Positions 18,003 through 30,915 of a stretch of 64,000 nucleotides of DNA are shown in pieces (position 1 is the stretch's first letter; each line of letters opens with the position of its first letter). A model generated the notes under the pieces. It was not told the DNA's origin, did not search any database, and saw only the letters and a list, made by a program, of their open reading frames with translations. Position numbers and translations under genes: made by a program. Origin of the DNA: Nitrososphaerota archaeon (GTDB taxonomy: Archaea > Thermoproteota > Nitrososphaeria_A > Caldarchaeales > Calditenuaceae); contig WUQR01000139.1 of NCBI GenBank assembly GCA_009889515.1, positions 868,001 through 932,000 on the forward strand. Reading direction: 5' to 3'.

Positions 18003-18077
18003 TCCCTAATCGTCGTCTAGTGGATCCTCTGATTTAGTCGCATACACTTTTCCCATGAGTCTTCGCCCGGAACAAAT

Positions 18078-18983
18078 CTATATTCGTGGTACTACCAGCT
18101 CCACCAGATTGTCGTCAGAGTCCCTCACAGTGTAGCCGACGAAGCCCTCTAGGCTGTTCACCAACCCATCATTAACGGCGACACCATTCTCCACCAGCCG
18201 AGCCCTCACTTCGCGGAGCCGGTCAGAGCTGCCAAGGTTTATGGCAAAGCTCTCCAGCTTTACATGCTCTTCCGAGGGTGGCGGCGCGTCCACGCCTGCC
18301 CAGGTGTTGGCACCTATGTGGTGATGATAGCCTCCGTATGACATGAAGATGGCTGTGCCGCCCAGCCTAAACGTTATGTCAAAGCCCAGTAGTCTATGGT
18401 AAAACTTCTCAGCCCTCTCAAGCCGCGAGACGTGTAAGTGTATGTGACCCACTTTGGTGCCTGGTGGAGCCTTCCAGTCCTCTGAAAGGGCTACCTTCCT
18501 GCCCTCACCCCTCAACTCGCCTAGCAGCGAGTCTATGTTGAGCGGTAGCGTAGCCATGCGTATGAACCCGCCATGCCCCCGTCCCCAACCTGTGGAGGGC
18601 CTATCGGCATAGACCTCAATACCATGGCCGTCGGGGTCCCGGAGGTAGAGTGCCTCACTCACCAGATGGTCTGAGGCGCCATCAATCTCCCAATACTCTG
18701 CAAGCCTCAAAAACACTCTAGCAAGCTCCAGCCTAGAGGGCATGCGGATAGCGAAGTGGTAGAGTCCACGCCTGTCCTCTGGCTTAGGCAGAGCGCCCCT
18801 CTTCTCCCTTAGTATCAGGAGCGGCGGACCACCTGTGACCCCCAGCACAGCCCTCTCACCCAGCCATGAAAGAACAGAGAGCCCCAAGACCCTAGTATAA
18901 AATTGCAGGGACTTGCCGATGTCTGACACGGTTATAAAAACCCACTGAATAACTGCCTTATCACCGGCCCTAGAAGTAGACAA
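18078..18983 (-). CDS. Two-domain VOC-fold dioxygenase (catechol 2,3-dioxygenase-like)
   Basis: A 301-residue protein with two vicinal-oxygen-chelate modules: residues about 10-125 (VFITVSDIGKSLQFYTRVLG to DPDGHGIEVYAD) and 170-300 (KVGHIHLHVSRLERAEKFYH to VRDSDDNLVELV). His and Glu metal positions (HIHLHV, GYHHHIGANTW, DDNLVELV) fit a CatE-type extradiol dioxygenase. Ring cleavage is plausible but the substrate is unknown. The start at 18983 is preceded on the minus strand by an A/T-rich TTTTTATAC element. No aromatic-degradation cluster surrounds it. Confidence 0.83.
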   Translation of the reverse strand: MSTSRAGDKAVIQWVFITVSDIGKSLQFYTRVLGLSVLSWLGERAVLGVTGGPPLLILREKRGALPKPEDRRGLYHFAIRMPSRLELARVFLRLAEYWEIDGASDHLVSEALYLRDPDGHGIEVYADRPSTGWGRGHGGFIRMATLPLNIDSLLGELRGEGRKVALSEDWKAPPGTKVGHIHLHVSRLERAEKFYHRLLGFDITFRLGGTAIFMSYGGYHHHIGANTWAGVDAPPPSEEHVKLESFAINLGSSDRLREVRARLVENGVAVNDGLVNSLEGFVGYTVRDSDDNLVELVVPRI

Positions 18984-19085
18984 CCAAGAGACAACGCTTC
19001 ACCATGTATAAAAAGTTGACGAACCATCACGACGAAGATGAGTACCGGTATACCAATCGGTCCGTTGAGCCCGTCTCCTCTAGTG

Positions 19086-19571
19086 TCATGAGGGTTTTGG
19101 CAGTTGCTTCTCCTGCTCCCGTCTGAAGACGGTCTTGGCTGTCATTGCTCCTCCGATGATGATCAGTACGGTGAGCGTTATTGCAGCAGGTATGTAAGTG
19201 AGGTATGCTATCGATATATGTATAACCATGTAGAGTATGCCGTAGCCGACGGCTATGAGAAGCACGGTGGCCCAAGCCCACCTCTCACCCCTCCTCACAG
19301 CGTTCCACGTCATGGAGGCGCTAGCTACACCCAACAGGATGAAACCTATTATCGACTCCTTATTCTCGTGCCAGACCCAATCAGCCACTTTAGGATTTTG
19401 CATCCTTACGTTTTGCAGGGAAGCTTGCATGAAGGGTTCTGCACCAGGGTCTAGAGTCGGAATAGCTATGACGATCCCCAGACCTATCGCTGCCAACGAG
19501 GCTACGAACATAAGCACCCAGCCAATCTTGAAGGCTGTGCTCTGCCGGGCCATTTGACCGGCCTCATTCAT
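19086..19571 (-). CDS. Four-helix membrane protein of unknown function
   Basis: A protein of about 161 residues with four hydrophobic segments: near residues 15-35 (IGWVLMFVASLAAIGLGIVIA), 75-95 (IIGFILLGVASASMTW), 105-125 (ATVLLIAVGYGILYMVI) and 128-150 (YIPAAITLTVLIIIGGAM). A polar extracellular-like loop (about 36-72) contains VADWVWHENKES. The ATG at 19571 is preferred over 19616 because a TATA box (ATTTTATAC on the minus strand, about 19595-19603) places transcription just before it. I do not recognise the family. Confidence 0.7.
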   Translation of the reverse strand: MNEAGQMARQSTAFKIGWVLMFVASLAAIGLGIVIAIPTLDPGAEPFMQASLQNVRMQNPKVADWVWHENKESIIGFILLGVASASMTWNAVRRGERWAWATVLLIAVGYGILYMVIHISIAYLTYIPAAITLTVLIIIGGAMTAKTVFRREQEKQLPKPS

Positions 19572-19684
19572 CGCGACAATGTGTGTGAAGCTGTATAAAA
19601 TAATGGCGACATGCAATCGCTGGTTGTTGTGACATAACTCTTATAAACAGCCGGTAGTCAGTAGCGAGGAGGTGTTTGTTGTTC

Positions 19685-20038
19685 ATGAAGCTCGACTATA
19701 TAACACTCATGGTAGAAGATATGGCCAAGTCTCGAGAGTTCTATCGAGATAAGCTTGGATTACCGGTCAAGGAGGATCACGGCCTTGACTGGTGCTCTTT
19801 TGAGACAGGAGGTACAACTCTAGCGTTGCATCCCGCTAGGGAAGGCGGTGCAAAGCCGCATCATCGCTTCGAGCTGTTCTTCAGCGTCGATGATATAGAC
19901 AGAGAGTATGAGCAGTTGAAAGCAAAAGGTGTAAAGTTCACAGACAAACCTGTAGACCAGCCCTACGGTTGGCGTACAGCACACTGCACCGACCCTGAAG
20001 GCAATGTAATAGAGATAGGCAGCCCCGTGAAGAGATAA
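19685..20038 (+). CDS. Single-domain VOC/glyoxalase-like protein
   Basis: A protein of about 117 residues, one vicinal-oxygen-chelate domain: MKLDYITLMVEDMAKSREFY at the N-terminus, LFFSVDDIDREYEQL in the middle and HCTDPEGNVIEIGSP at the end. Metal-ligand positions are partly present. Possible roles include glyoxalase, epimerase or resistance protein; none can be chosen from sequence. The ATG at 19685 follows AGGAGGTG by about 9 bases, a strong ribosome-binding site, so the upstream TTG reading is not needed. Confidence 0.8.
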   Translation: MKLDYITLMVEDMAKSREFYRDKLGLPVKEDHGLDWCSFETGGTTLALHPAREGGAKPHHRFELFFSVDDIDREYEQLKAKGVKFTDKPVDQPYGWRTAHCTDPEGNVIEIGSPVKR

Positions 20039-20133
20039 CCCCTATATTTGAAAACATTTTTCAAACACATTTACCTATTCTATTACTGAGACGATAGCAA
20101 TAAGTTTCTAAAATCTTCAAGGTTATCATTAGG

Positions 20134-20199
20134 TTATGCAATCAGAGTATCAAAGGCACATGGGAGGCCAGCGTCGATATGAAGCTTGACAAAAACTAA
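20134..20199 (+). pseudogene. Short decayed fragment related to the 21242 gene
   Basis: In the otherwise empty stretch between 20039 and 20260, one frame reads SIKGTWEASVDMKLDKN and then stops. This resembles the N-terminal part of the protein at 21242-21700 (LEGKWEAKAHMQMGDKSY): G-x-W-E-A, then an Ala or Ser, then alternating hydrophobics, a D-K pair, in the same spacing. No start codon context or continuation is visible, so I read it as a remnant of a paralogous copy. The similarity is short and could be chance. Confidence 0.35.
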
Positions 20200-20260
20200 T
20201 ACTTATTACTCCACAAATTCGCAATAATCGACAACTCAACCATCATAACAGGCATGCTTA

Positions 20261-21022
20261 TTATTGCAATGCCCATGAAGGCTTTCTTTTCTCCACAAAC
20301 GCCCTCATACCTTCAACGGCCTCGTCGGACACGGCCATAGAGGAGAGCTCTCTCAAGGCTTCTCGGATGTTCTGAGACCTACTCCTAGCAAGCCACCTCC
20401 GCATGAATTTTACAGCCCCAGGCCCGTTGAGGGATATCTTTCCAGCTACTTCGACGACCTTGTCCCTCACAGCCTCTTTGGGAACCACGTAGTCGACCAG
20501 CCCTATCGAAAGGGCTTCACGCGCATCTATGGCTTCACCTGTAAAGACAAGCCTCGAGATTCTTCGCAAGCCGAGAACATACCCGCCTACTGCGAGAGCT
20601 ATGGGAGGTATTAGCCCAAGCCTAGCCTCGGGCAGCGCAAACACGGCGTCTTCGGAGGCAACAACCACGTCTGCCAAAAGCAACAGCTCGCATCCACCAC
20701 CGTAAGCCAGGCCGTTGACACCGGCTATGACGGGCTTCTCCAACTCCAGCAGGGCTTCCAATGTCTTTTGAATCCTGCTAAAAAACTCTACAGACCTCTC
20801 CAAGTCCCCCAGAGACGCCATTTCGTATACGTCATCACCCGCTGAGAAAGCCCTCCCAACACCGGTGAACGCCACAGCCCTTGAGCCGTCCAAGCTTAAA
20901 CTCGACACGACCTCATGAAGCTCTTTCCACATCTCCCCGTTTAAGGCATTAAGCTTCTCAGGCCTGTTGAAGACAACCCAAGTCACTAAACCCTCGCGCG
21001 AAACCTGTAAATACCGATGCAT
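20261..21022 (-). CDS. Enoyl-CoA hydratase/isomerase family protein
   Basis: A 253-residue crotonase-fold enzyme. The oxyanion-hole segments are FTGVGRAFSAGDDVYEMAS (about residues 52-70) and VIAGVNGLAYGGGCELLLLAD (about 98-118); the Glu of ALPEARLGL fits the catalytic Glu position. It hydrates enoyl-CoA or does a related reaction in fatty-acid or amino-acid carbon turnover. A TATA-like GATTATTTACC precedes the ATG on the minus strand by about 30 bases. It stands alone, without neighbouring beta-oxidation genes. Confidence 0.9.
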   Translation of the reverse strand: MHRYLQVSREGLVTWVVFNRPEKLNALNGEMWKELHEVVSSLSLDGSRAVAFTGVGRAFSAGDDVYEMASLGDLERSVEFFSRIQKTLEALLELEKPVIAGVNGLAYGGGCELLLLADVVVASEDAVFALPEARLGLIPPIALAVGGYVLGLRRISRLVFTGEAIDAREALSIGLVDYVVPKEAVRDKVVEVAGKISLNGPGAVKFMRRWLARSRSQNIREALRELSSMAVSDEAVEGMRAFVEKRKPSWALQ

Positions 21023-21241
21023 ATCTTCTGTGTGAAGCAGCGGTAAATAATCGTTTATGGGCTACACAACAGATATCAAAAAACCCTCCTTTAGAACTCT
21101 GCGAATTTGCGTCGATGCCATTATTTCAGTCCATATTTAAATAATGCGAGTATTTTATATAGCATGAGGGCTGGCTCCCCCTCACCATCAGCGTCCCTAG
21201 AACAAACTTATATTCCACAGAGTAAACTAATGGGGGAAACA

Positions 21242-21700
21242 ATGGATATATTGCCTGAAATCCTAAACAAAGTTCTTACGCTTGAAGGTAAATGGGAAGC
21301 TAAAGCACACATGCAGATGGGTGACAAATCTTATAATTTTAAGTATTTTATGAATTTCCGGAAAATAGCTGACGGTAATGGTCTTTACATGGAGGAAAAT
21401 GCAGAAATTCCGGGCGTTATGAGACTTGATGGAGGGAACATCATAGGATACGATCCCTTCGACGGAAAGCTTCACTGGTTCTCAGTAGATAATCTTGGCA
21501 CCACACATGATCACATAGCAGAGTTAGTAGAGGAGAATCACATACAACTTATTCATGAGAGCGAGCGTGAAGGAAAAAAGTTCAGAGAAAATATCGATAT
21601 CAAATGGATAAGTGACAAAGAAGTTTTTATTAAATTGGTAGCTACGCTCAACGATAACGTGGAATATATACTAGAGGGAACATTTATCCGGAAAAGCTGA
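21242..21700 (+). CDS. Uncharacterised small beta-barrel-like protein (DUF1579-like)
   Basis: A protein of about 152 residues with alternating beta-strand-like segments: LEGKWEAKAHMQMGDKSYNF, GLYMEENAEIPGVM, GGNIIGYDPFDGKLHWFSVD, ending KLVATLNDNVEYILEG. The pattern (GKWE start, then GYDPFDGKLHWFSVD) resembles lipocalin-like proteins of the DUF1579 kind; function unknown. An upstream open frame to 21107 exists, but a TATA-like ACTTATATTC at about 21206-21215 and a GGGGGA just before make ATG 21242 the best start. Codons are more AT-rich than in the flanks, marking the beginning of the accessory island. Confidence 0.7.
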   Translation: MDILPEILNKVLTLEGKWEAKAHMQMGDKSYNFKYFMNFRKIADGNGLYMEENAEIPGVMRLDGGNIIGYDPFDGKLHWFSVDNLGTTHDHIAELVEENHIQLIHESEREGKKFRENIDIKWISDKEVFIKLVATLNDNVEYILEGTFIRKS

Positions 21701-21842
21701 AGGTAATAATTCGTTCAAGTAAGCTGCACAGCCCCTATTTCTTCCTCACCTATGAAAGTAAGCCAAACTGTGTAAGTCTTACCTATATTTTTTTGTAGAA
21801 GTTCGTCAAAGGACTATAATATTTTTGGATTTCTAAATTGCA

Positions 21843-21868
21843 CGCCAGAGGTGGAATTTGAACCCACC
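21843..21868 (-). other. tRNA 3'-end-like remnant at island edge
   Basis: On the minus strand this reads as a tRNA T-arm plus acceptor 3' strand: a five-base stem GTGGG, loop TTCAAAT, stem TCCAC, then CTCTGGC and a discriminator-like G. Only one change (a G-U pair at the T-stem top) separates it from a canonical archaeal 3' end. The upstream sequence, despite a GCCAGAG at the right distance (21909-21915), lacks a foldable anticodon arm. I read it as an attachment-site-type remnant at the left border of the AT-rich island. Confidence 0.45.
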
Positions 21869-21915
21869 AATCCAGACATCCTACTCTTCATAATTCCACG
21901 AATGATTACTCTGGC
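21844..21915. repeat. Interrupted inverted repeat overlapping the nuclease gene end
   Basis: Two arm pairs are perfect: GCCAGAG at 21844-21850 with CTCTGGC at 21909-21915, and GTGGAATT at 21851-21858 with AATTCCAC at 21892-21899. The left arms are contiguous (15 bases) and the right arms are split by 9 bases. The right part lies in the last codons and stop of the nuclease gene on the minus strand. It could act as a terminator hairpin or be an inverted duplication of the tRNA-like end. Confidence 0.5.
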
Positions 21916-22960
21916 TCGTTTTCTTGACCTTCAAATATCTCCTCTCGTAAGGATATTGTCTTCTCTTTTAGGGGTGATTGGTCGTCTAGGTCGTCTATCC
22001 AGCAGACAATGTAGTCGCAACCGTCGGGGTCGTGTCCGTGCTGTATGAAGGATGATGATTTATACTCAAACTCTATTCGGCAATAGTCACCCTCTTCGTC
22101 AAGGGCAATCATATCTGGAAAAGACTGCTGAACCTTAATTATGTATGGAAATCCTAGCTCTCTGTGATACATGCCAAATAGGAGAACTACACCGAGCTCA
22201 TTGACGGGCTCATAAAGCATGGGAACTTTAGATAAAGGTGAGGGGCTTTCAACCGACTTACGACTTATTATCGGCCTAGGTGATGGAATGAACTCGCCCA
22301 GAAGCCTCGCAATAGCACAAGTATCCCATTCATAGTCGCGCGTCAATACACTCTGGACAGAGTCGATCAATATTTCATTATATATCTCGAATTTTTTGCC
22401 CACCGTGAGGTTTTCAAGTTTCTCATTAAATCTTCTCTGCGCCTCAATTTCGGCTTTATCTCTCAGCCCAAGGCCATTAAGTTGGTTTTCTAACAGTTCG
22501 GTCTTAAAAGTGGGTAGCAGTTTTTCTGGATAATAGACGAATAGCTTTTTTTGACACAATGTTTGTCACCTCCCCAGCCTTTGAGCTGGCTCCACCGCTC
22601 ATCATCAATCCTTTCATGAATAGATTTAGAGTCGTCAACAACTAGTTTTAACAGTTGTTTAAATATGTCTATTTTACTACACGCCTCGCGCCACGGTTTA
22701 TCACCATGTATGGCTATAGTTCCAACGCGTCTCAAATAGAATTCAAAGAAATAGAAGAACCACTCGCGCGATTTTCCCGGATTATACAACTTTTCAGGAG
22801 TTAACTCGTCTATAAGTGAGGGATTCTTCCTGAAGGGGAAACGCTCAATAAACTCTCTCAAGACCCTCCTATCTTTTTCAACTTCCTCTCTAAACTGAGG
22901 CGAGTCAAGCAGCCGCCTCGCAAATTCCAACAAAGAGCTCTTTATCTCAGATTTTATCAT
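21906..22960 (-). pseudogene. PD-(D/E)XK nuclease-like gene split by a frame break
   Basis: Two minus-strand frames, 22960-22490 (156 residues) and 22559-21906 (217 residues), encode successive parts of one protein of about 350 residues. The junction is a run of seven A on the coding strand (22546-22552). A single extra A, or a -1 ribosomal slip, would join ...GGDKHCVKK to LFVYYPEKLL. The C-terminal part has a nuclease core: NELGVVLLFG, then PD (residues 148-149 of the second frame) and E165-Y-K167 in RIEFEYKSSSF, followed by HGHDPDGCDYIVCW. The first part is helical with no recognised motif. Its place beside a Type III-like restriction system suggests a defence role. It may be a sequencing error, a true pseudogene or programmed frameshifting. 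Confidence 0.68.
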
Positions 22961-23094
22961 CTCAGATGAGCTAAGCGATTATGGCTTAAAAGCGTTTCGG
23001 ATGCATGAAAAACTAGTATCTCGGTTATCTACCCATCTCCTTCCACTACCTATTGATACGCTGCATATAAGGAATAGGGGATTAAACTGAACCT

Positions 23095-23448
23095 TCACAC
23101 TTTCCAAACGCCATCTGGTATCAGGTCCTCTTCTCTAACCCTACCATTGTATATGTAGACGGATGCCTTTAAGGTGCTTCCGTCATCCATGAATACTTCT
23201 ATAACCTTCCTTATGAATAGACTTTCTTCGCGCTTGTCCCGATTAAAACCTTCATACTCATCTAACCGCGGCAGAACTTCATCCATGTTTGAGATCTCAT
23301 ATACGTCACCGTATACGAAGCCCACATCGTCCTCAACGGCCCCAGGATACTCACCCAAATTATATAGTTTCCCCCGGACCCTACCACTCCCAACATACCT
23401 TGCCTCCTTGCCGGCCACCAACCTTGAAAGGATATCCCTCATCTTCAA
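23095..23448 (-). CDS. Gamma-glutamylcyclotransferase-fold (AIG2-like) protein
   Basis: A 117-residue protein with features of the GGCT/AIG2 fold: ARYVGSGRVRGKLYNLGEYPGAV (about residues 16-38), GDVYEISNMDEVLPRLDEYEGF (about 47-68) with the conserved acidic region, and ASVYIYNGR near the end. The family includes gamma-glutamyl(amine) cyclotransferases; many members are of unknown role. It lies between the broken nuclease gene and a broken small gene on the same strand, within the AT-rich island. Confidence 0.75.
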   Translation of the reverse strand: MKMRDILSRLVAGKEARYVGSGRVRGKLYNLGEYPGAVEDDVGFVYGDVYEISNMDEVLPRLDEYEGFNRDKREESLFIRKVIEVFMDDGSTLKASVYIYNGRVREEDLIPDGVWKV

Positions 23449-23474
23449 CGCACCGTATACAAATATTTTATCAA

Positions 23475-23772
23475 CTAGAAGAAATTTAGATAGTCTGTAA
23501 ATTCCGTAAGAAGCCTATATTCTTCGTCAGTCAGCATTTCTCCTCTTACTTCCTTCTGAATTATCCGTTCAATCATGCTCGTCACCTCTTCAGAGCCCGT
23601 TTGCTCTCTGATGTTCATCAAGTGGAGCTTCACATAGAAGTCGTGATAGAGAGTTGAGCCACCAAGCCTTTCTATAGGTAATTGAGCGCCTATATTGAAA
23701 TAGCCCAATCTTAGCCGTCAATAATCCACCGAAAACAGTAGCTCCAAACAACATTTCATGCAACTCAACCAT
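23475..23772 (-). pseudogene. Small island gene, apparently frame-shifted
   Basis: Two overlapping minus-strand frames look like halves of one gene of about 98 residues. The first (from 23772) begins MVELHEMLFGATVFGGLLTA with an A-rich TATA region upstream. The second (23708-23475) reads GSTLYHDFYVKLHLMNIREQ and ends in a helical, acidic tail (ERIIQKEVRGEMLTDEEYRL). Joining them in the 23680-23708 overlap gives one continuous protein, but I cannot name the exact break. The second frame could also be an independent 77-residue gene. No family recognised. Confidence 0.45.
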
Positions 23773-23813
23773 TCAAACCATCCTCTCGCAACTAAATCCC
23801 TCTGCCAAAGCAA

Positions 23814-23823
23814 AAATATATAA
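23814..23823 (+). promoter_or_regulatory. TATA box of the restriction-modification operon
   Basis: AAATATATAA lies about 30 bases before the ATG at 23851 in an A-rich context. It is the only strong promoter-like element before mod and res, so the small ORF, mod and res probably form one transcript starting here. Confidence 0.6.
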
Positions 23824-23850
23824 CCCAAAAGGCGCATACTAGTAATAAAC

Positions 23851-24036
23851 ATGACAAATGGGAAGGGTCAAATACATGGTATGCCAAGGTTATTAAGGAA
23901 AGGCAGGCTGATAAAGAGCCTTATAATTAAGGTAATAATTCTCCCAAATTATGTAAAGCGAGGTATTTCTGAAAGAGTGGCGCAATTAGGAATCTATTTT
24001 AACGGAATTAGAGTTGGAGGTGTGGGTAATGAGTAA
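23851..24036 (+). CDS. Small basic protein ORF overlapping mod
   Basis: A 61-residue ORF, leaderless behind the TATA box at 23814. Its stop overlaps the mod start (ATGAGTAA), the arrangement of translational coupling. The product is basic (GMPRLLRKGRLIKSLIIKV) with a possible short helix pair (KRGISERVAQLGIYFNG) that could be a degenerate DNA-binding helix. A control protein for the restriction system is possible but unproven; the ORF may also be a non-coding leader. Confidence 0.45.
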   Translation: MTNGKGQIHGMPRLLRKGRLIKSLIIKVIILPNYVKRGISERVAQLGIYFNGIRVGGVGNE

Positions 24037-26524
24037 AGTTGATGAGATCGCTTCTGGAGGGATGGGTGAAAAAGAGAGAATGTTCTTTAATATTTTGGAG
24101 AATATTTTTATCGGTGCAAACATAGAAGGGAAATCTGGCTTCATAAACTTGATGAGGATTAAATCTTCGTATTTTAGGTCTTTCTTGTCAATTCTCAGAA
24201 AAGTGGTTGAGGAAACCCTTGAAGAATTTCCTGAGTTCAGGGAAGAGCTTTTTGATAAACTCTATAATTTCTTTAAGCGATACTTTAGTGAGAGTGGCTC
24301 AATTCATTTTGTCTTCACACCTCTCCAGGAGAATGTTTGGGCTAGAGTTTATACAGATAAGGATGTCGCTTTATTCTGGAAGACTCGAGACCTTTACTAT
24401 GTTAAGACTGACCGTATTTATAAGAGTATGAGTGTGGAACTCGATGCTTTTAAGTTCTTCTTTGATGCTTCTGAGGTGGAGCATAGAAAGGCTTATGAAA
24501 AGAGAAAAATAATCTACGAATTGAAGGACGTAAGTGATGATGGGACAATTCATTTCCAAGTAATTTATTCTGAGAGAGGGAGGGAGACCAAAATCGAAGA
24601 GATTTTAAGGAGATTAAAGGACCGAAGAATCACAGAAGAGGTTCTTGAAAAGGCATTTAAAATATTTGAGAGACAGAGCGAGGTGGATTACTTCATTAAT
24701 AAAGATGCAAATGCTTTCTTAAAAGAGCAGTTTGAGATTTGGCTTAGACATTACATAATGGACGAAGAGAGCGAGTTTAGTGAGAAAAGATTGAAAGAGT
24801 TGAAGGCGCTTAAGACGATAGCGTTTAAAATCATAGATTTCATTTCCCAGTTTGAAGATGAACTGCGAAAAATATGGGAGAAACCCAAATTTGTCCTAAA
24901 TAGCGAATATGTAATAACACTAGATAGAATAAAGGAACTGTGTGGAGAAGATTTTTTGGAAAACTACGTTATTCCTAAAGTTTTAGCTAATGAAGAGCAG
25001 CTACGAGAATGGAGAGAGTTGTTGGGAGTTGAGATTAGGGGTATTTCAGACCTTATCGAAACAAATAGCCTTCAAGGAAAGGAGTGGAAAAAACTACCCA
25101 TAGATACTAAATACTTTGATCATGAATTTAAATGGAAGTTAATAGAAAAAATTTCTGAGAATAACGAGCTTGATAAGGTTTTAGATGGCTGGTTGATTAA
25201 AAGTGAAAACTGGCAAGCATTAAATACAATTTTACCAAAATTCAGAGGAAAAGTTCAGACAATTTACATAGATCCACCATTTAATAAGGAGCAGGACGCT
25301 GACTACTACTACCATGTGAAATATAAGGATTCTACATGGATAACAATGCTTGAGAATAGATTGCAGCTAGCAAGGCACATTTTAAAAGATACAGGAAGCA
25401 TTTTTGTGAGATGCGATGATAACGGTAACATGTACGTTAGACTTTTAATGAACGAAATTTTTGGGGAAGAAAATTTCCAAAATGAAATAGTGATAAAGAC
25501 GTCTGGAATTCAAAAAGAAGCAAAGCGCAAATTTCTTGACGCTACAGAGAGCCTATTTTTCTATGCCAAAAATAAGGAACAGTGTTTGTTTTACGAATTA
25601 TATGAAGAGAGAGAAACTGATTGGCAACCTTTTGTCCATTATCCAGGAGTTAGGAATCAGGATAGGAACTGGAGAGAGGTTTTCGGTATAAAGTTATATC
25701 CTCCATTAGGAAGACATTGGGGGATTAAACAAGATTTAATAGATAAATATATATCTAAAAAGCTCATAAGGTTTAGATGCAAAATCTGCGGATATGAGCA
25801 TTATGAAGGTTTGTGGGACAAATGTCCTAAGTGTGGAGAAAATGATTTTGTTCCCGAAATAAAAAATCCACCTAAAAAGGTTGATTCTAATTGGACGAAT
25901 ATACAAAGTTACTCACAAGACCCAGACTTTCCAACAAGAAATGCTGAGCAACTTATTCAACGTGTGTTTGAGGCTACATCTAAAGAAGGTGATTTAGTTA
26001 TGGACTTCTTTTTAGGTTCTGGTACTGCGACAGCAGTTGCCCATAAGTTAAGGAGAAAATGGATTGGTGTCGAAATGGGTGAACATTTCTGGACAATCGT
26101 CCTACCGCGTATGAAGAAGGTTCTGGCAGGAGAGAAGTCAGGAATAAGTAGAAATATCAATTGGGAGGGTAGCGGTTTCTTTAAGTATTATGAATTGGAG
26201 CAATATGAGCAAACGCTAGATAGAGCAGTCTATAAGGATACTCACCCCTTCGTTGACTGGACCTCTAGCGAAATTTATTCCCACTATGTTTTCCTAAAAG
26301 ATGAAAAAATGCTACGCGCATTAGAGATAGATTACAACAATAAAACCGTTAAAGTTGACCTCTCGAAACTTTATCCAAACATAGATATTGCTGAAACCAT
26401 ATCAAACCTAAAAGGGAAATGGATAAAAAGGTTGACAAGAAAAGAGGTAGAGTTTGAGGATGGGGAAGTTATAGACCTAGGGAATTTAGACTGGAAATTG
26501 ATTAAACCCCTAATATGGTGGTGA
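24029..26524 (+). CDS. mod: Type III-like DNA methyltransferase (Mod subunit)
   Basis: Modifies adenine in an asymmetric site and supplies specificity to the partner Res helicase-nuclease. In the protein of about 831 residues, motif IV DPPF is at residues 415-418 and the SAM motif FLGSGT at about 661-666. This order (catalytic before SAM) is the beta class used by Type III Mod proteins. The N-terminal 400 residues are helical and charged. Between the motifs, residues 584-602 hold a CxxC...CxxC zinc ribbon (CKICGYEHYE, CPKCGEND) in the region expected to read DNA. ATG 24029 follows GGAGGTG by 6 bases; the upstream TTG is rejected. Codon use is very AT-rich (AAA, AAT, TTA), unlike the flanks: recent transfer is likely. 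Confidence 0.92.
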   Translation: MSKVDEIASGGMGEKERMFFNILENIFIGANIEGKSGFINLMRIKSSYFRSFLSILRKVVEETLEEFPEFREELFDKLYNFFKRYFSESGSIHFVFTPLQENVWARVYTDKDVALFWKTRDLYYVKTDRIYKSMSVELDAFKFFFDASEVEHRKAYEKRKIIYELKDVSDDGTIHFQVIYSERGRETKIEEILRRLKDRRITEEVLEKAFKIFERQSEVDYFINKDANAFLKEQFEIWLRHYIMDEESEFSEKRLKELKALKTIAFKIIDFISQFEDELRKIWEKPKFVLNSEYVITLDRIKELCGEDFLENYVIPKVLANEEQLREWRELLGVEIRGISDLIETNSLQGKEWKKLPIDTKYFDHEFKWKLIEKISENNELDKVLDGWLIKSENWQALNTILPKFRGKVQTIYIDPPFNKEQDADYYYHVKYKDSTWITMLENRLQLARHILKDTGSIFVRCDDNGNMYVRLLMNEIFGEENFQNEIVIKTSGIQKEAKRKFLDATESLFFYAKNKEQCLFYELYEERETDWQPFVHYPGVRNQDRNWREVFGIKLYPPLGRHWGIKQDLIDKYISKKLIRFRCKICGYEHYEGLWDKCPKCGENDFVPEIKNPPKKVDSNWTNIQSYSQDPDFPTRNAEQLIQRVFEATSKEGDLVMDFFLGSGTATAVAHKLRRKWIGVEMGEHFWTIVLPRMKKVLAGEKSGISRNINWEGSGFFKYYELEQYEQTLDRAVYKDTHPFVDWTSSEIYSHYVFLKDEKMLRALEIDYNNKTVKVDLSKLYPNIDIAETISNLKGKWIKRLTRKEVEFEDGEVIDLGNLDWKLIKPLIWW

Positions 26525-26526
26525 GA

Positions 26527-29500
26527 ATGTCGGGATACACGCCAGTCAAAGTAATACTCCAAAATATTGCTGATAGTATTGATTTCAATTCTCTTCCACC
26601 TTCATGGTCAACATTTAACAACTTCACCTCATTCTCCAAGACCAAGAATCTCTACGACTACCAAGAGGAGGCATTAAAAAACGCTATCAAGATTCTCTAC
26701 TTCTATTATCAAAGCGCGGAAGACTATAAAGAGGGGGAGCCCTTAGAAACTAACGAAAAGAGAAAAACATTACTTTTCGCAGAATATGAAAGGCGAGGAC
26801 TAGAATCACACCACTTAGCCATTAGAAAGTCAAAACAAAAAACGATTTACAAGCTCTTATCCGAATATTTTGAAAGCGAAGGAGAGCAAATATCTTATCG
26901 AAATCTCATCAACAGAATGTCCTTTTGGATGGCAACTGGATCTGGAAAGACCTTAGTCATCGTAAAACTGATTGAGATTCTGTATTATTTAATGAAAAGA
27001 AGAGAAATTCCTCCTTGCGATATCTTAGTTTTGACATGTCGAGAAGATCTAGTTGAGAAAATGAAGGAATACATAGATGAATACAATGAATACAATAACT
27101 TGAAGATCAGGCTTTGGAACTTGAAAGATTTTAGTAAAGTAAAGTACGGTGGGATCTTGCCAAGGGGAGAGAATACCATAGATGTCTTCATCTACAGGTC
27201 AGATTTAATATGGGACGAAGAGACAGAGAAATATATAGACTTTAGAAATTATGAGAATATTGGAAGATGGTATATCTTACTTGATGAAGCACATAAAGGC
27301 GGCAAAGAAGAATCTAAGAGACAAGCATTCTACTCGATTATGTCGAGAAACGGCTTCCTTTTCAACTTTTCAGCGACGTTTACAGACGAGATAGACATAT
27401 ACACGACTGTATATAACATTAACCTTGCGCAATATGTAGGAAAGGGTTATGGAAAGAATATATACATATCAGAACAAGAATTTGAAGCATTCAGAGATAA
27501 GGAAGATTACCCGAGCACTGAGAAACAGAAAATCGTCTTAAAAACATTAATCCTCTTGACATATCTTAAAAAAATATACAAAGATATAAGAGCAAAAACA
27601 GGTAAGAATGTTTATCACATACCAATGATGCTAACACTTACACATACGGTCAACCATAAAGATCCAAGTAAAGAGCCCGACTTAGAAATGTTCTTCAAAG
27701 AACTTGAAAAAATAGCTGAGGGAAAGATAAAATATGAGACATTTGAGAAAGCAAAAGAAGAGCTTATCCAAGAGTTTGAAAAACAGAATCCCTACGTGTA
27801 TGGATCAGAAAGACTATTAGTTAATACCGAGAAATTAAAAACAATTTCATATACTGATGTTTTATATGAAGTTTTCAACGCACAAACTCCCGGAAACATA
27901 GAAGTTTTGGTACTGCCATCAAATCGGCAGGAATTAGCATTTAAGTTAAAAACATCCGACAGACCTTTTGCGAGTGTCAAAATAGGAGACATAACTAATT
28001 GGCTAAAAACGACTCTCTCAGGATATGAGATAATAGAAAGATGGGAAAATGAGAGCTTCTTCAGAAGTATAAACAAAGACGACTCCGACATAAACATATT
28101 GATGGGGTCTAGAGCTTTCTATGAAGGGTGGGACTCGAATAGACCTAATGTAATCACTTTTATTAACATAGGAGTCGGGACTGACGCTAAAAAATTCATC
28201 ACACAATCAATAGGAAGAGGCGCGCGAATAGAGCCTATGAAAAACAAGAGAAAGAGGATAAACTATTTACGCATTTCGATGGACCCAGAGGCTAAAGAGT
28301 TGGTCAATAATGTCAGCCCAGAAACCTTTATCCCTCTGGAAACTCTTTTTATTTTCGCTACGAAAAAGAACATTATCCAAGAAATAATGACATCAGTAAA
28401 AGAGGAAAAAATGAGACTGGGAGAAATAATCTCGTTGGATAAAAACCCGAAAACAGGAGAAGTAATCTTGCTGATCCCATATTACAGTGGGAGAAGGAAA
28501 GTACCAACAGAAAAAATCCCAAAATTCAGTGTAAATAGAGAATCATTAATGCAGCTTAGAAGATACATCGAAATGATCGGTGATGACAGAGTTTTACTTA
28601 TGCTTCACTTTTCAGAACCTGGTCTAAATTTTGATGATCTCATAAGATTTAAAGAATTTATTTGGAATGATGAGAAATTTAATTTCGTCGAGAATAGTGA
28701 GTTGTTGCCCCCCTCAGTACTCCTTACTCGTCTGATATCTCATATTAACGTCAGTGTAGAGGATTTGGAAAGATTTAAAATACTTGAGGAAGAAATAGTT
28801 CATTTCAAGAGGATTGGAGTGTATTTGGATGAGGTGAGACTTAATGCACTTAAAGAAAAATTGGAAAAAGTGAGGAAATATCCAGAAAAGAAAGTGGTAG
28901 AACAGGAGCTGAGTAATCTTTATGGTAAAATAAGTCAAACAGAGTATGATAGAAGGAAATATGAATTAGAGAAAAAATACGCAGAACAAGAAATTCTTAC
29001 TATAGACGGGAAAAAATTGGGAATATACTACATAGCCGAACACTATTATCTACCCCTTCTGTCGACAGAGGAAAAGATAGAGTGGATAACCCATATAATT
29101 AATACACCTAGCGAACACAAATTCATTAAAGATTTGATTGATTACTCAAAGAAAGAGAGTAACTTATTAAAAGAATTTGATTGGTGGATGTTCAGCAAAA
29201 TAGATGGATACTTAGATGAGATATATATCCCATATTACGACAGTTCTCAGAATTCACTTCGCAAATTTAAGCCAGACTTCATATTTTGGTTATGCAAAGG
29301 CGAGGACTATTACATACTCTTCATAGACCCGAAAGGAACATCCCACACGGAATTCGGCTATAAAATTGATGGTTATGAGAAAATTTTCAGAAATGAGGAT
29401 GGTTCTATTAAGACGTTTCAGGAGTACGGATTTAATATTAGAGTTCACTTAAATCTTTACACAGACGATGTATATAAGCTCCCTGAAAGGTTTCGTAAGG

Positions 29501-29553
29501 AATACTGGTTTGATAGTATCGAAAAATCAATCAATAACTTATTAACGACTTAG
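26527..29553 (+). CDS. res: Type III-like restriction helicase-nuclease (Res subunit)
   Basis: An SF2 translocase-endonuclease of about 1008 residues that cuts foreign DNA with the Mod partner. Walker A ATGSGKT is at residues 136-142, motif II DEAH at 253-256, and motif VI-like QSIGRGARIEP near residue 560. The C-terminal nuclease has P916-D917 and D934-P-K936 (KPDFIFW, LFIDPKGTS), a PD-(D/E)XK variant with Asp in the middle position. The start ATG 26527 follows GGTGGTGAG just after the mod stop; an earlier ATG at 26515 overlaps mod. Both genes share the same AT-rich codon usage. All key motifs look intact, so the system is probably active. Confidence 0.92.
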   Translation: MSGYTPVKVILQNIADSIDFNSLPPSWSTFNNFTSFSKTKNLYDYQEEALKNAIKILYFYYQSAEDYKEGEPLETNEKRKTLLFAEYERRGLESHHLAIRKSKQKTIYKLLSEYFESEGEQISYRNLINRMSFWMATGSGKTLVIVKLIEILYYLMKRREIPPCDILVLTCREDLVEKMKEYIDEYNEYNNLKIRLWNLKDFSKVKYGGILPRGENTIDVFIYRSDLIWDEETEKYIDFRNYENIGRWYILLDEAHKGGKEESKRQAFYSIMSRNGFLFNFSATFTDEIDIYTTVYNINLAQYVGKGYGKNIYISEQEFEAFRDKEDYPSTEKQKIVLKTLILLTYLKKIYKDIRAKTGKNVYHIPMMLTLTHTVNHKDPSKEPDLEMFFKELEKIAEGKIKYETFEKAKEELIQEFEKQNPYVYGSERLLVNTEKLKTISYTDVLYEVFNAQTPGNIEVLVLPSNRQELAFKLKTSDRPFASVKIGDITNWLKTTLSGYEIIERWENESFFRSINKDDSDINILMGSRAFYEGWDSNRPNVITFINIGVGTDAKKFITQSIGRGARIEPMKNKRKRINYLRISMDPEAKELVNNVSPETFIPLETLFIFATKKNIIQEIMTSVKEEKMRLGEIISLDKNPKTGEVILLIPYYSGRRKVPTEKIPKFSVNRESLMQLRRYIEMIGDDRVLLMLHFSEPGLNFDDLIRFKEFIWNDEKFNFVENSELLPPSVLLTRLISHINVSVEDLERFKILEEEIVHFKRIGVYLDEVRLNALKEKLEKVRKYPEKKVVEQELSNLYGKISQTEYDRRKYELEKKYAEQEILTIDGKKLGIYYIAEHYYLPLLSTEEKIEWITHIINTPSEHKFIKDLIDYSKKESNLLKEFDWWMFSKIDGYLDEIYIPYYDSSQNSLRKFKPDFIFWLCKGEDYYILFIDPKGTSHTEFGYKIDGYEKIFRNEDGSIKTFQEYGFNIRVHLNLYTDDVYKLPERFRKEYWFDSIEKSINNLLTT

Positions 29554-29969
29554 CAATTAACTTCCCCTTTATTAGAAACAAGTATAACTCCGCTAGTCGA
29601 AGATGTGAGGCTCTTCTGTATAGTTTTACCTGCCTCCTTGTCCAAGGAATGTGACATTCCTATCGACAAGTTTCCTACTAATTGGGCAGAATAGATAAAA
29701 TGAAGTCTGCAAAAGAATACATAACTAATTTGATAATTCCAAAGAGCTTAATTCTACACCTAAAGAATTTGATTCTCAGCATCAAACACTACCCAAAAAG
29801 AAAATCACCTACTTGTAGAATTGGATACACATATAATTAAGAGACTTAAAGATAGATTACCGATAAAAGGAAAATGCAAGATTTGTGAACAATTATGAAG
29901 ACTATATGCGTGTACTCACGTTTTCATTATTTCAGCTAGCCTTCCTTGAGGCGATGAAATACATTGTGT
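29554..29969. other. Gene-free AT-rich tract after res
   Basis: No convincing gene is seen in these 416 bases. A 46-codon frame at 29700-29840 (basic, Leu/Ile-rich) lacks a ribosome-binding site and known motifs. Later frames are short; one contains a CKIC. The tract holds a 17-base palindrome at 29645-29661. It looks like eroded coding DNA of the accessory island. Confidence 0.6.
29645..29661. repeat. 17-base perfect palindrome
   Basis: AGGAATGTGACATTCCT: arms of 8 bases around a central G. The loop is too short for an RNA hairpin terminator, so a protein-binding site (operator or recombination site) is more likely. It lies about 90 bases past the res stop codon. Confidence 0.6.
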
Positions 29970-30761
29970 TTATACTCCTCGCTGTACATGTCTGATCTCA
30001 AGTTTTGTAACAGTTATTGGACAGCTGGATAATATGCAACCCCAGTTCCCGTTAGCGACATAGACATACCAAGATCCCGAGGAGGGAACTGTAAATTCTA
30101 ACGATCCTGAATAGCCATAGCTTGCTGCAGGCCAACTCCACATCCATAGAGAAATTATAGTTTCACAGTAAGAGCCGCGAACATTTTTCTCATAGTCCGC
30201 ATCAGTCCCGATCGCGATATATGTGGCATCATCATTTGATTCCCAGTAGACCCTTATAACATCACCCTTCTTGGCATTTATTGGAAATTGGTGTACTCGG
30301 CACTGCCTATCAATATGTACTGATCCGGAATAGATTATATTCTCTATTGCACCTTCTGCTGGTAGGTACTGGTAAGGTTGAGTATATTGATATGGCTGAG
30401 GATAAATCAGTGTGTTAGTTACTGTCTTGGTGAATACTTCCTGTACGAAAATCGTGGTAGTGTGGGTTTGGGGTCTTATTAAAGTAGGAACAAACAATGC
30501 GGACACAATACCAACGGCGAATAGACCTGCAATTATAGATACGATGAGCCATTTCCTATTCCCGCCAGCCCGTCCATGTTCCTGGCTCCTCTGCACATCT
30601 CCACCTAACTCCTCCTCAGCGAGTTCTAAATACTTCGATAGCAGAGCTCTCCTCCTCTCCCTATAAAACTCCTCATCTATCAAGCCCAACCTCCTAGCTT
30701 CTTCCAGTTTCTTCAAAACTCTAAGAATCCTATCATCATCCCTATCCTCTGGCATATCCAC
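29970..30761 (-). CDS. SHOCT-like membrane-anchored protein with extracellular beta domain
   Basis: A 263-residue protein with three parts. Residues about 10-45 form a SHOCT-like helical pair (ILRVLKKLEEARRLGLIDEE, then FYRERRRALL). Residues about 72-95 are one transmembrane helix (LIVSIIAGLFAVGIVSALFV). After a Thr-rich stalk (HTTTIFVQEVFTKTVTNT) comes a beta-rich outer domain with GSVHIDRQCRVHQFPINAKKG and SLEFTVPSSGSWYVYVANG, similar in style to bacterial PPC domains. Cysteines (GSYCETI, WGCILSSC) may form disulfides. Function unknown. A TATA-like element AATTATTTAA sits just upstream on the minus strand, near 30785-30800. It is the right-hand member of the island. Confidence 0.72.
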   Translation of the reverse strand: MDMPEDRDDDRILRVLKKLEEARRLGLIDEEFYRERRRALLSKYLELAEEELGGDVQRSQEHGRAGGNRKWLIVSIIAGLFAVGIVSALFVPTLIRPQTHTTTIFVQEVFTKTVTNTLIYPQPYQYTQPYQYLPAEGAIENIIYSGSVHIDRQCRVHQFPINAKKGDVIRVYWESNDDATYIAIGTDADYEKNVRGSYCETIISLWMWSWPAASYGYSGSLEFTVPSSGSWYVYVANGNWGCILSSCPITVTKLEIRHVQRGV

Positions 30762-30915
30762 TAGTTAGCAGATGTAGTTGCCTAAATTATTTAAATCTTC
30801 TCGGCTTGGGAGCTTTTAACCACCTTGTTCGTAAAGATAATAGAGTGATAGCAATAAAAATGCGGTCAAATACATAATTGCTTAACCTAGTCTAAAAATT
30901 TTGAAAAAGTACAGT

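Follow-up and report, generated by a model that had tools for sequence, protein, structure and literature searches.

An accessory nuclease gene of a Nitrososphaerota archaeon, split at an A7 run, is most likely recently broken and not recoded

In the 64,000-nt stretch of DNA from a hot-spring Nitrososphaerota archaeon analysed here (the window), the reading frame of a predicted nuclease gene is lost at a run of seven A and two overlapping open reading frames take its place (Table 1). What does such a break at a homopolymer represent? A sequence-only reading of the locus had offered three options, namely an assembly error, a real inactivation and programmed frameshifting controlling a toxic nuclease. 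The evidence favours real inactivation, which is the probable explanation; an assembly error is the main rival at a clearly lower likelihood, and programmed frameshifting is disfavoured.

Table 1. Features of the split nuclease gene and its surroundings (positions in the window)
Feature	Positions	Strand	Description
ORF1	22490..22960	-	N-terminal fragment, 156 aa; homologous over residues 1-138, the rest an out-of-frame tail ending at a stop
ORF2	21906..22559	-	C-terminal fragment, 217 aa; second half of helical domain and complete nuclease domain
A7 run at frame break	22546..22552	-	Codons 137-139; inside the ORF1/ORF2 overlap
PD-(D/E)XK-fold nuclease domain	21909..22247	-	113 aa; motif FPD...IEFE...S...CDYIVCW
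Mobile unit	21900..23009	-	Gene with ~49 nt upstream and ~6 nt downstream; sole stretch common to relatives' loci
Variable island	18003..30915	n/a	Contains the nuclease gene and a type III mod/res pair

The broken gene and its intact relatives

ORF1 and ORF2 lie in different frames of the minus strand and overlap by 70 nt. The span from 22960 to 21906 measures 1,055 nt, where 351 codons and a stop would need one nt more, and the intact proteins of congeners have exactly 351 aa. The frame is lost at the A7 run, as had been noted. Both fragments match one and the same frame in relatives and therefore represent a single broken nuclease gene, as had been proposed, and not two neighbours. The genome holds no second copy of it.

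Homologs from the same genus (L002 and L003), the family (L004) and the order (L005) have one continuous frame matching both halves. Identity to L002, L004 and L005 is 78, 67 and 62% for ORF1 over residues 1-138 and 84, 70 and 64% for ORF2. Seven more distant full-length homologs from bacteria and archaea (L011-L014, L022, L023 and L046) are also single-frame. The frame is thus uninterrupted in 11 of 11 intact homologs of about 336-351 residues, four of them in the same order, and homologs consistently encoded as two proteins, which would have spoken against the earlier reading, were not found. None of the 11 has an A7 at the break site, where their longest A/T run is 2-6.

Protein family and genomic setting

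In the model of the full-length protein (pLDDT 84), the N-terminal ~225 residues form a helical domain, which is followed by a C-terminal alpha/beta domain. A fold search with this model was uninformative, as the helical domain dominates. The C-terminal domain alone gave an AlphaFold model with pLDDT 91, whose elements (H17-27 E35-39 E46-49 E55-63 H65-70 E79-84) follow the alpha-beta-beta-beta-alpha-beta order of the PD-(D/E)XK core. Its best solved match by Foldseek was NucS/EndoMS 2vld (probability 0.98, TM ~0.53 on the query), and the top matches are PD-(D/E)XK enzymes, though with an E-value of 0.04. Several of the next matches (EndoMS 5gke, I-Ssp6803I, LlaBIII and McrC) are likewise enzymes of this class. 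The PD-(D/E)XK assignment therefore holds at the level of the fold, but in place of an E-x-K motif the family conserves PD...E-x-E together with C-D-x-I-V/I-C-W: PD is conserved in nearly all of the 16 rows of the alignment and is followed by E-x-E, with no conserved Lys there. E-x-E is a known kind of PD-(D/E)XK variant, as in BamHI. The protein resembles NucS/EndoMS of Pyrococcus (2vld, 5gke) in the order of the core and in where its strands carry the PD and E-x-E residues, but differs in having Glu in place of the motif lysine and another N-terminal domain, besides the modest E-value of the match. Sequence searches of the PDB matched no solved structure, and no Pfam or PADLOC family covered the full protein; searches of phages, plasmids and viral contigs gave nothing useful. 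The protein, a predicted nuclease, belongs to an unnamed family in which a helical domain at the N-terminus is combined with a C-terminal domain of PD-(D/E)XK fold and the E-x-E variant motif.

One relative (L035, 1501-2226) carries this nuclease domain joined to an EVE domain as defined in Pfam. This recalls the EVE-domain modification-dependent restriction endonucleases (PMC7641849), although the window protein has the helical domain instead of EVE and no reader domain was recognised in it. Domain shuffling is seen more widely (L035, L016, L006 and L024-L034): the nuclease domain is joined to EVE or unknown domains, and the helical N-terminal domain is found apart from the nuclease domain in other genomes of the phylum and in many of family f5.

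When the window was compared by blastn with the loci of two relatives (G005:C8 and G003:C41), a single block of 1,111 bp with 83% identity was common to them and no neighbouring gene was shared. The gene is missing from three of five congeners. This absence, its movement as a ~1.1-kb single-gene block and its place in a variable island, whose flanks are syntenic in congeners while the contents differ, show that it is dispensable, and it is a lone accessory cassette. The island also carries, beside unrelated genes, a type III mod gene (24014-26524; MTase_III model, E 4e-271) with its res pair. Linkage to mod/res is not constant, the relatives' loci having unrelated neighbours, and a role as partner of the nearby type III restriction-modification system was ruled out by this context. 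Fold, mobility and the EVE fusion together suggest a restriction- or defence-type role.

Recoding, two proteins and the junction residue

Could the full-length protein still be made? The A7 run can be read as a ribosomal or transcriptional -1 slip site allowing programmed or fortuitous rescue, as in fucA1 of Saccharolobus solfataricus, a reading that we consider improbable. The frame relation is right, AAA_AAA_A being followed by the ORF2 frame, and an SD-like GGAGGTGA stands 13 nt upstream; however, the base preceding the run is C, so that the phase is not the canonical X_XXY_YYZ, and GGAGGTGA simply codes for a conserved Gly-Gly-Asp. Moreover, the RNA downstream shows no folding beyond that of its shuffled versions (z +0.1 to +1.0). 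In fucA1 too an archaeal gene is split at an A-run into overlapping ORFs with intact homologs in relatives, and this species-specific split gene can be translated (PMC8211752). The window gene differs from that programmed -1 frameshift in its non-canonical phase, in having no stem-loop and in its product, which would carry Lys where the family has Leu or Ile, whereas in fucA1 product and relatives agree. Since fucA1 is translated and 10% shifting was measured at an A7 in one reporter (PMC3711429), the lack of the run in every relative does not alone dispose of recoding, and purifying selection persists on both halves. Nevertheless, the 11 single-frame homologs without A7, the unstructured RNA and the off-family residue speak against programmed frameshifting, and as a conserved mechanism it was rejected on the homologs together with the junction residue. 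The toxic nuclease supposed to be under its control fared no better, with neither a toxin partner nor evidence for such control.

It is also very improbable that the gene now encodes two proteins, with ORF2 and its complete nuclease domain starting internally at a TTG at 22559. This TTG is a possible internal start: it lies in the ORF2 frame 6 nt behind GGAGGTGA, more starts than internal control sites have SD matches of at least 6 nt (66 against 13 of 967), and the nuclease domain is also present in other architectures. Against this, the break interrupts a helix predicted in the N-terminal domain (residues 134-143) and does not coincide with a domain boundary, every full-length homolog has one frame, and L002 is without the TTG. 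A two-gene organisation was rejected, the relatives being single-frame. The TTG itself is created by a window-specific residue, Cys at position 135 (22557-22575, minus strand).

The residue at the junction bears on where the base was lost. Position 139, within the same helix, is occupied by Leu in five of the 11 intact homologs and by Ile in the other six, as well as in relatives that have only the N-terminal domain. With an extra A, and equally with a -1 slip at the A7, this position becomes Lys. The proposal that one more A restores a 351-residue nuclease thus stands for the length but not for the family residue, and a single-base loss beside the A run, rather than within it, would best fit the family. 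The 1.2 Mb of the contig have no A/T or G/C run of at least 8 (7-runs number 47 for A/T and 15 for G/C) and A8/T8 matches number only 1-5 in each congener genome, so an A8 parent would be exceptional. Given Lys at a Leu/Ile site and a contig without such homopolymers, an A8 read as A7 is not the economical account. All 19 A8/T8 pattern matches of the window's assembly (G000) fall on contigs other than the main contig, C139, and the assembly totals 2.1 Mb against 1.4-1.7 Mb in congeners; from this distribution and size, some of its small contigs may be foreign.

Assembly error, real loss and what the break means

The quality of the assembly was surveyed by matching congener ORFs to 1.2 Mb of the window's contig. 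A first set of 357 genes gave one frameshift pair, the nuclease gene, and an extended set of 622 matched ORFs (558 kb of contig, with 9 A/T runs of 7 and 110 of 6) added one weak pair. The latter (G000:C139, ~454541-455094) lies at a C7 run, has 36/54% identity to an ORF of G005 and is, at ~454.8 kb, probably a spurious ORF. The nuclease gene is therefore the only convincing frameshift in the extended set. As the sole such break in 558 kb of tested coding DNA, where A/T 7-runs are rare, it is present in the published sequence beyond chance. With one convincing case the assembly is not indel-prone, and the rule of three, applied to the rest, bounds the error at ~5e-6 per base or less, that is at most ~0.006 expected in a gene of this size. 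An error-prone assembly was ruled out by these counts. They do not, on their own, separate an isolated error from a real break, since no real breaks occur elsewhere either. What the conserved genes limit is the error rate; they tell little about real breakage of dispensable genes.

An isolated error of assembly or consensus, by which a base of the A-run went missing from the sequence of a gene that is intact in the organism, is a minority reading. The break sits at a homopolymer and is a lone lesion in an otherwise perfectly conserved gene (dN/dS ~0.1), and in a survey validated singleton frameshifts were assigned mainly to sequencing errors (PMC3711429). However, no other convincing frameshift is seen among the 622 matched ORFs, and the extra A would make the sole 8-run in 1.2 Mb and place Lys at the invariant Leu/Ile site.

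The age of the break is constrained by the two halves themselves. Between the window copy and L002, dN/dS (Nei-Gojobori) comes to 0.10 in the N-part and 0.12 in the C-part. When L004 serves as outgroup, the derived residues in these two parts number 7 and 11 in the window copy but 15 and 14 in L002, which is intact. The window copy has no further stops or indels. Judged from these substitutions, the gene was evidently under purifying selection until very recently, or still is, and the break is either very recent or an assembly error. An older, decaying pseudogene was ruled out by dN/dS and relative-rate counts.

Real and recent inactivation of a stand-alone accessory nuclease gene is the reading that we hold probable, and it is preferred over an isolated assembly error in view of the clean contig, the dispensable gene, the genus without MutS and a published precedent. 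Intact orthologs exist and the window copy is interrupted, as in a pseudogene. MutS (PF00488) was absent from all six congeneric genomes (G000-G005), the control search being positive in 11 of 14 genomes, and single-nt frameshifts in short runs are known from an archaeon that lacks MutSL (PMC4471258). One base would have been lost very recently at or beside the A-run of lysine codons, presumably by a replication error in this MutS-less archaeon, and the break would lie in the organism's own DNA. Translation would stay in frame only as far as residue 138, midway through the helical domain, and stop 18 codons later. The full-length nuclease would then no longer be made, and its activity may be lost in the lineage or in a sub-population. 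Quite improbably, the broken allele could instead be phase-variable (reversible) or rescued by slippage, with switching at the A-run tuning a restriction-like activity in an archaeon without MutS.

The homologs, the residue at the junction and the survey of errors across the contig thus all point to a plain recent break. Most likely an accessory nuclease gene has broken in an ordinary way, and very recently, rather than come under a controlled frameshift; the chief competing account is an isolated assembly error. The case is mainly a caution, since a homopolymer at a frame break is no evidence of recoding. As a by-product it brings to light a small and unnamed family of PD-(D/E)XK fold, whose partner domain is interchangeable and whose members come from archaea and some bacteria.
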